NCBI GenBank assembly: GCA_003558065.1
Contig: PWMU01000026.1
Location: 1-64,000, forward strand
Length of the DNA: 64,000 nt
Direction: 5' to 3'
DNA from: Opitutia bacterium
GTDB lineage: Bacteria > Verrucomicrobiota > Verrucomicrobiia > Opitutales > T3Sed10-336
Of this stretch, positions 22,337-43,823 are shown in pieces; the stretch's first letter is position 1; the number at the start of each line of letters is the position of its first letter. Under the pieces are notes generated by a model. The model had not been told where the DNA came from. It saw only the letters and a program-made list of their open reading frames with translations, and did no database searches. The translations under genes and the position numbers were made by a program.

Positions 22337-23221
22337 ATGATCATCGACAGCCATGTTCACCTTTACGCGCCCGAGGTGGCGGCGGATCCGCGCGGCTGGG
22401 CGGAGGCCCGGGGCGAAGAGCGCTGGGCGAACCTGGCCGCGCCGGTTTCGGGGCCGCGGCTGCAGGGGTGGTCGGATATCGACACGCTCCTGTCGGATAT
22501 GGACGCCGCCGGTGTGGAAAAAGCGGTCCTTCTCGGTTGGTACTGGGATCATCTGGAAACCTGTGTCGAGCAGAACAACTGGTACCTCGGGTGGATCAAA
22601 CAGCATCCCGACCGGCTGATGGCCTTCGCCACCGTCCAGCCGCGGGCGGGGGCCGAGGCCGAAGATGAAGTGAAACGGGCTGTCGACGCCGGTCTGTGCG
22701 GGATAGGGGAGCTCTCGCACACCTCACAGGGCTTTTCCATGGAGCATCCCGGGTGGATCCGGATCCTCGAACTCGCTGTGGAACGGGGGCTCCCGATCAA
22801 CCTGCACGTCAACGAACCGGTCGGCCGCCGGCATCCCGGTCGCCTGCAGGATGCCCTCGACGATTACGTTTGGCTGGCCGATCGTTTTCCCGATTTGAAA
22901 CTGATCCTCGCCCATTGGGGCGGCCTTCTGCCGTTTTTCGAAATCAACAAGTGGGTCGGCAGCCGGATGAGCAACGTCTATTACGACACCGCGGCCAGCC
23001 CGCTGCTGTACGATCCAAGGATTTTCCGTACGGTCGTGGACGCGATCTGACCCGAACGCGTCCTTTACGGCTCCGACTACCCGCTCCGCCTATACCCGAA
23101 AAAGCAGCAATTCCCCGATTTTCGTCCCTTCCTTGAGGAGATACGGAACGCGGACCTGAGCGAAGCCGAACAGAGACCCATTCTCGGCGGGAACGCCCGG
23201 GACCTGTTCGGAAAGGATTGA
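22337..23221 (+). pseudogene. Amidohydrolase-family gene interrupted by an in-frame TGA at codon 238
   Basis: The frame from ATG 22337 encodes a metal-dependent amidohydrolase (amidohydrolase_2/ACMSD-like TIM barrel). It starts MIIDSHVHLYAPE, continues with INLHVNEPVGRRHP, LKLILAHWGG and NVYYDTAASPLLYD, and ends at a TGA (23048-23050). Translation resumed past that codon gives PERVLYGSDYPLRLYPKK, the family's C-terminal metal/substrate block, then a plausible end ILGGNARDLFGKD before TGA at 23219. A complete product would be 294 aa. The TGA stands where relatives usually have Gly (GGA to TGA, one base). All flanking genes use TGA as stop, so recoding of the genome is excluded. It is either a recent pseudogene, a sequencing error, or rare readthrough. 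If truncated, the product lacks the catalytic Asp of GSDYP. Confidence 0.85.
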
Positions 23222-42740: not shown

Positions 42741-43823
42741 ATGAGTTACGACATGAATGATCTTTTGCACCTGACGGTCGACGAAGGTGCTTCGGATTTG
42801 CATCTCCAGGTGGGCCAGGCCCCGACCTTGCGTGTGTCCGGGGGGCTGACGCCGGTGGAGGGGGATGCCTTGAAGCCCGAAGATACCGAGCAGTTGATGG
42901 AGTCGATCACGCCGGAGGTTCACCAGCAACAGGTGAAAACCCAGGGCGGCGCCGACTTCGGGTTCGCGTTTCTCGATAAAGCACGCTTCCGGGTCAGTAT
43001 CCTGAAAGCGAAGGGCCATTACGGGCTGGTCTTGCGACAGATTCCGAACGATATGTTCGGTATCCGCCAGATCGGGCTGCCCGACAGTATACGGGATCTC
43101 CTGTACCTTCCCCGGGGGCTCATCCTGGTTACGGGCCCGACCGGTTCGGGGAAGACGACGACCCTGGCCTCGATGCTCAATTACATCAATGAGAACCGGG
43201 ACTGCCACGTGATCACGATCGAGGACCCGATCGAGTACTACCACGAACACAAGAAATCGATCCTGACTCAGCGGGAACTGGGGACCGATGTGCCGAGTTT
43301 CGAGGAAGCCATCCGGCGGGCCCTCCGTCAGGACCCCGATGTGATTCTCGTGGGGGAAATGCGCGACCTGGCGACGATCGAGGCGGCCGTGACCGCCGCG
43401 GAAACGGGGCACCTGGTTTTTGCCACGCTGCATACCACCGGTGCGGCGCGCACCGTCGACCGTGTCGTCGACGCGTTTCCGGCCAACGCCAAGGACATGA
43501 TCCGGACGCAGTTGGCCTCGTCGATCGTGGCGGTGATTTCCCAGGTTCTTTGCAAGAAGGTCGGCGGCGGACGCATCGCCGGTTTCGAGTTGATGATCAC
43601 CACCAATTCGATTCGTGCTCTGATTCGCGACAACAAAACCTACCGGATTGCCTCGGATATTCAGACAGGGGCCAATATCGGGATGATCACGTTGGATGCT
43701 CACCTCCTCAGTCTCTACAACAAGGGCCTGATTTCTCCGGATGAGTGCCTGGACAAGGCTCAGGACACACAGGGGATGAAAGAGAAACTTGTGGCGCTCG
43801 GCGCCGAACTCACCTCCCGCTGA
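42741..43823 (+). CDS. pilT: Type IV pilus retraction ATPase PilT
   Basis: A 360-aa hexameric ATPase that retracts type IV pili for twitching motility. It starts [28 protein letters not shown], the standard PilT opening. Walker A is [17 protein letters not shown] near residue 130, the Asp box [13 protein letters not shown], Walker [17 protein letters not shown], and the His box [16 protein letters not shown]. The AIRALIR-type C-terminal motif is seen as [14 protein letters not shown], which favours PilT over PilB. There is no zinc tetracysteine, as expected. It sits between two pilB-like genes in one co-directional operon. Confidence 0.95.

Follow-up and report, generated by a model that had tools for sequence, protein, structure and literature searches.

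The question raised by this locus is how a lone in-frame TGA should be read in an otherwise well-preserved amidohydrolase gene; namely, whether it is a real nonsense allele or an error of the assembled consensus, or whether the codon is recoded and the full-length enzyme is still made. Taken together, the two readings that need no recoding are very probable. The window referred to below is the whole 64,000-nucleotide stretch of DNA that was analysed, and its features at this locus are given in Table 1.

An amidohydrolase gene interrupted once

When codon 238 is read through, the Amidohydro_2 profile (PF04909) matches residues 3–292 of the protein over profile positions 1–288 of 289 (E = 1.7e-40), with a score of 140 bits against a curated cut-off of 26.4. 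Because this match spans the read-through protein from end to end, both flanks of the TGA belong to one domain, and the first-pass annotation was right to follow the frame past the TGA at 23048-23050 into a C-terminal block with a natural stop at 23219. The start ATG, the inner TGA, the PERVLYGSDYPLR downstream of it and the final TGA were all confirmed in the letters at their tabulated coordinates. The metal-site set of HxH, two further histidines and a late Asp is complete in the read-through frame as His6, His8, His157, His193 and Asp247, the last of which lies downstream of the TGA. No ATG, GTG or TTG occurs in frame within 23051..23218; the C-terminal part therefore has no start of its own at a common start codon, and a separate start for it was rejected on these grounds. 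No second disabling change was found within the gene.

Table 1 Features of the interrupted amidohydrolase gene (window coordinates).
Feature	Position	Strand	Remarks
Amidohydro_2 (PF04909) gene	22337..23221	+	With codon 238 read through, 294 codons and a stop; relatives share the start and align over the full length
Part before the stop, 237 codons	22337..23047	+	Carries metal-site His6, His8, His157 and His193
Lone in-frame TGA, codon 238	23048..23050	+	Sense codon, mostly GGN (Gly), in compared homologues
C-terminal part, 56 codons	23051..23218	+	Contains GSDYP with invariant Asp247
Natural stop, TGA	23219..23221	+	Read from sequence

A homology search found one copy of the gene in the genome, and the locus occupies its ancestral place, because the flanking DNA is collinear with that of a genome of the same genus. 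The gene is chromosomal and single-copy, and from sequence its product is predicted to be a metal-dependent hydrolase or decarboxylase of the Amidohydro_2 family, from an uncultured Opitutales-type bacterium. The family includes ACMSD, 2,3-dihydroxybenzoate and salicylate decarboxylases, 5-carboxyvanillate decarboxylase and related hydrolases, and the solved structures matched by sequence, weakly but significantly, include ACMSD and several aromatic-acid decarboxylases. The gene resembles known members in its whole-length match, N-terminal HxH, two more histidines and late Asp; it differs from them in that its frame is broken by a stop ahead of that Asp, and its solved relatives are distant.

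Homologues keep the codon open

Homologues of the amidohydrolase are present in 39 of the 53 genomes of the same order, the nearest being 80–81% identical within the genus and 72–76% identical within the family. The comparison with close relatives that had been proposed at first pass gave a uniform answer: site 238 is a sense codon in every close homologue, and the same-genus and same-family copies, with their loci taken on the coding strand, contain no inner stop. Apparent inner stops at two loci (L007 and L011) proved to be natural gene ends. A scan of viral contigs found no copies of the site. One distant homologue, from a Gemmatimonadetes bin (L097, 26% identity), also has one stop inside its aligned part.

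The interrupted codon had been described as a conserved Gly. That residue is indeed usual, occurring at position 238 in 30 of the 37 nearest homologues (at least 38% identity), but it is not invariant, the rest having Pro (4), Ser (1), Ala (1) or Leu (1). Across a wider set of 109 homologous loci, in which a few near genomes are counted twice from two collections, Gly is found in 87 and Cys in none. Asp247, in this family the late metal-site or catalytic Asp, is shared by all 108 homologues that cover the position, and His6, His8, His157 and His193 are near-invariant. The earlier statement that the truncated 237-residue product lacks the catalytic Asp is borne out; with Asp247 lost along with the C-terminal part, this product would be expected to be inactive. 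A stop that is absent from the orthologues and removes an essential part is the pattern of a nonsense allele.

Selenocysteine and reassignment of UGA

Insertion of selenocysteine at codon 238 is one way in which the UGA could be decoded. The gene is like selenoprotein genes in that homologous sequence flanks a single in-frame UGA, but it is unlike them in lacking Cys homologues and a SECIS-like hairpin directly after the UGA, where the downstream sequence folds more weakly than its shuffles (z = 1.89), and in residing in a genome without the Sec machinery. The search for this machinery had been proposed in the first-pass annotation. In the genome, which is 97% complete, SelA was not found; the top SelB match reached 182.6 bits against the 242 required and is elongation-factor-like, and the top tRNA-Sec match, at 43.4 bits against 47, is a Leu-TAA tRNA. 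Two genomes of the same order (G009 and G011), which carry SelA, SelB and tRNA-Sec, served as positive controls for these searches. A selenoprotein was rejected on machinery, on Cys or Sec at the site and on the SECIS hairpin, and selenocysteine is effectively excluded, within the limits of a genome that is 97% complete. With all three factors in two of its genomes, G011 and G009 (L031, L032, L039 and L040), and not in this one, the order is patchy for the Sec trait.

Nothing besides codon 238 itself favours the idea that this lineage has reassigned UGA to an amino acid. Against it, RF2 is present in the genome (509 bits), a CTT-TGA-C frameshift site lies near the start of the RF2 gene, and in a 464 kb sample of the genome TGA closes 136 of the 247 long frames whose end was seen; none of the 36 tRNAs found, which form an incomplete set, has a UCA anticodon. 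RF2 loss, a UCA-anticodon tRNA and many in-frame UGA codons would each mark a reassigned code, none of the three was found in this material, and reassignment is excluded. That the genetic code is unchanged had already been concluded at first pass, with the argument that all neighbouring genes end at TGA. The conclusion holds and the argument needs correction: 25 plus-strand frames checked in the window end in TGA (12), TAG (8) and TAA (5), with TGA as the commonest normal stop. Within prfB (L163:240-420, contig C179 of genome G000), the TATCTTTGAC site is about 25 codons in; on our reading, it is the usual RF2 autoregulatory frameshift signal and gives this genome an ordinary example of UGA recoding.

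The 464 kb sample was also scanned for other interrupted genes. In this sample, some 11% of the genome, the focal TGA was the sole isolated in-frame stop found inside a real gene; the scan relied on codon usage and could miss weak cases elsewhere. The remaining candidates (L168, L171, L174, L178, L182 and window position 43821) proved to be either spurious frames antisense to those of the opposite strand or genes in tandem, among the latter what we read as NuoG/NuoH-like and PilT/PilB-like pairs. A genome-wide habit of in-frame TGA was rejected, as the other candidates in the 464 kb were not isolated stops.

Readthrough of the UGA

Low-level near-cognate readthrough, for example by tRNA-Trp, could sustain some full-length enzyme and some selection on the gene. 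We consider this improbable, and the locus nevertheless has several features that would suit it. The stop is followed by C, a UGA-C context that is inefficient for termination in bacteria (PMC5289835), and C follows only 1 of the 12 normal TGA stops among the window frames that were checked. Several residues are tolerated at site 238. A perfect 7-bp inverted repeat (GGACGCG/CGCGTCC, window 23038-23063) surrounds the TGA, which would place it in the loop of a possible hairpin, and tRNA-Trp has what we read as a G-U pair topping its anticodon stem. However, with one such gene in 464 kb, a general habit of readthrough is not indicated, and by our reading tRNA-Trp is otherwise ordinary, with a 5-bp anticodon stem, A9 and G24. 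The tRNA-Trp forms that have been tied to UGA readthrough (PMC13092985) differ from the one in this genome. Its G-U pair is formed by positions 27-43 of the anticodon stem (L137:1498-1573).

The comparison with close relatives also speaks against readthrough as a maintained mechanism. None of them has a stop at this site, and the 7-bp hairpin is not kept in them; a conserved hairpin at the stop was rejected, being present here and absent there. With neither the stop nor a stimulatory hairpin conserved among close relatives, a readthrough programme is not supported, and basal near-cognate readthrough is possible. A species-specific version, in which the leaky UGA-C in the hairpin loop would give a small, perhaps regulated, share of full-length protein and keep the gene under selection, seems more improbable still. 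The first-pass annotation had left three options, a recent pseudogene, an assembly error and programmed readthrough. The first two stand, the pseudogene as a recent nonsense allele, and the third is nearly struck off, because selenocysteine is effectively excluded and the other readthrough signals are unconserved.

A recent nonsense allele or a consensus error

The gene around the stop is undecayed. Of the codons whose amino acid the four nearest relatives share, 4 of 144 upstream of the stop and none of 28 downstream of it are changed here, a lower count than in any of the other four genes compared, and amino-acid divergence downstream of the stop is no greater than that between intact relatives. 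The time spent without constraint would be below about 3–5% of the branch dating back to the divergence from the nearest relative (rough 95% bound), or below about 0.024 as a synonymous distance, in a rough neutral calculation that gives an order of magnitude only, as synonymous sites are near saturation. Because conservation elsewhere in the frame matches that of intact relatives, the change to a stop is probably either very recent or an assembly artefact. The lack of decay would be equally expected if leaky readthrough still yielded full-length protein.

A real allele in the population, either a recent pseudogene or a polymorphism, is our preferred reading and somewhat better than an even bet. 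It would have arisen very recently, when codon 238 of the single-copy Amidohydro_2 gene became a stop; RF2 would terminate at the UGA, leaving a 237-residue protein without the domain end and the catalytic Asp, and the allele would be inactive. The locus is like the recent nonsense pseudogenes and null alleles of bacterial chromosomes in its single stop, intact relatives, absence of other decay, single copy and ancestral place. In the assembled consensus we saw no difference from them.

A base error or a minority variant in that consensus, with the organism's own gene intact, is a possible if doubtful account. The genome is a draft of 197 contigs that, like the closest named genomes, seems to be a metagenome bin; the gene shows no other decay, and a single base substitution from a Gly codon is enough to give TGA. 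The absence of any further isolated in-frame stop in the 464 kb argues against an assembly that is generally rich in errors, but one error would still be compatible with it.

The gene should be annotated as interrupted, with the proviso that a single-base consensus error would look identical to a real nonsense allele. The locus is also instructive as a negative example: where a genome lacks the Sec factors and has RF2, a lone in-frame TGA does not count as evidence of recoding, even if the homology downstream is perfect. A single-stop nonsense allele or base error is of an ordinary kind and has little importance outside annotation. Among named genomes, the closest are sediment-sample bins assigned to Opitutales or Verrucomicrobia; bins of this kind have been described from soda lakes (PMC6146748), a link suggested by the isolate names.
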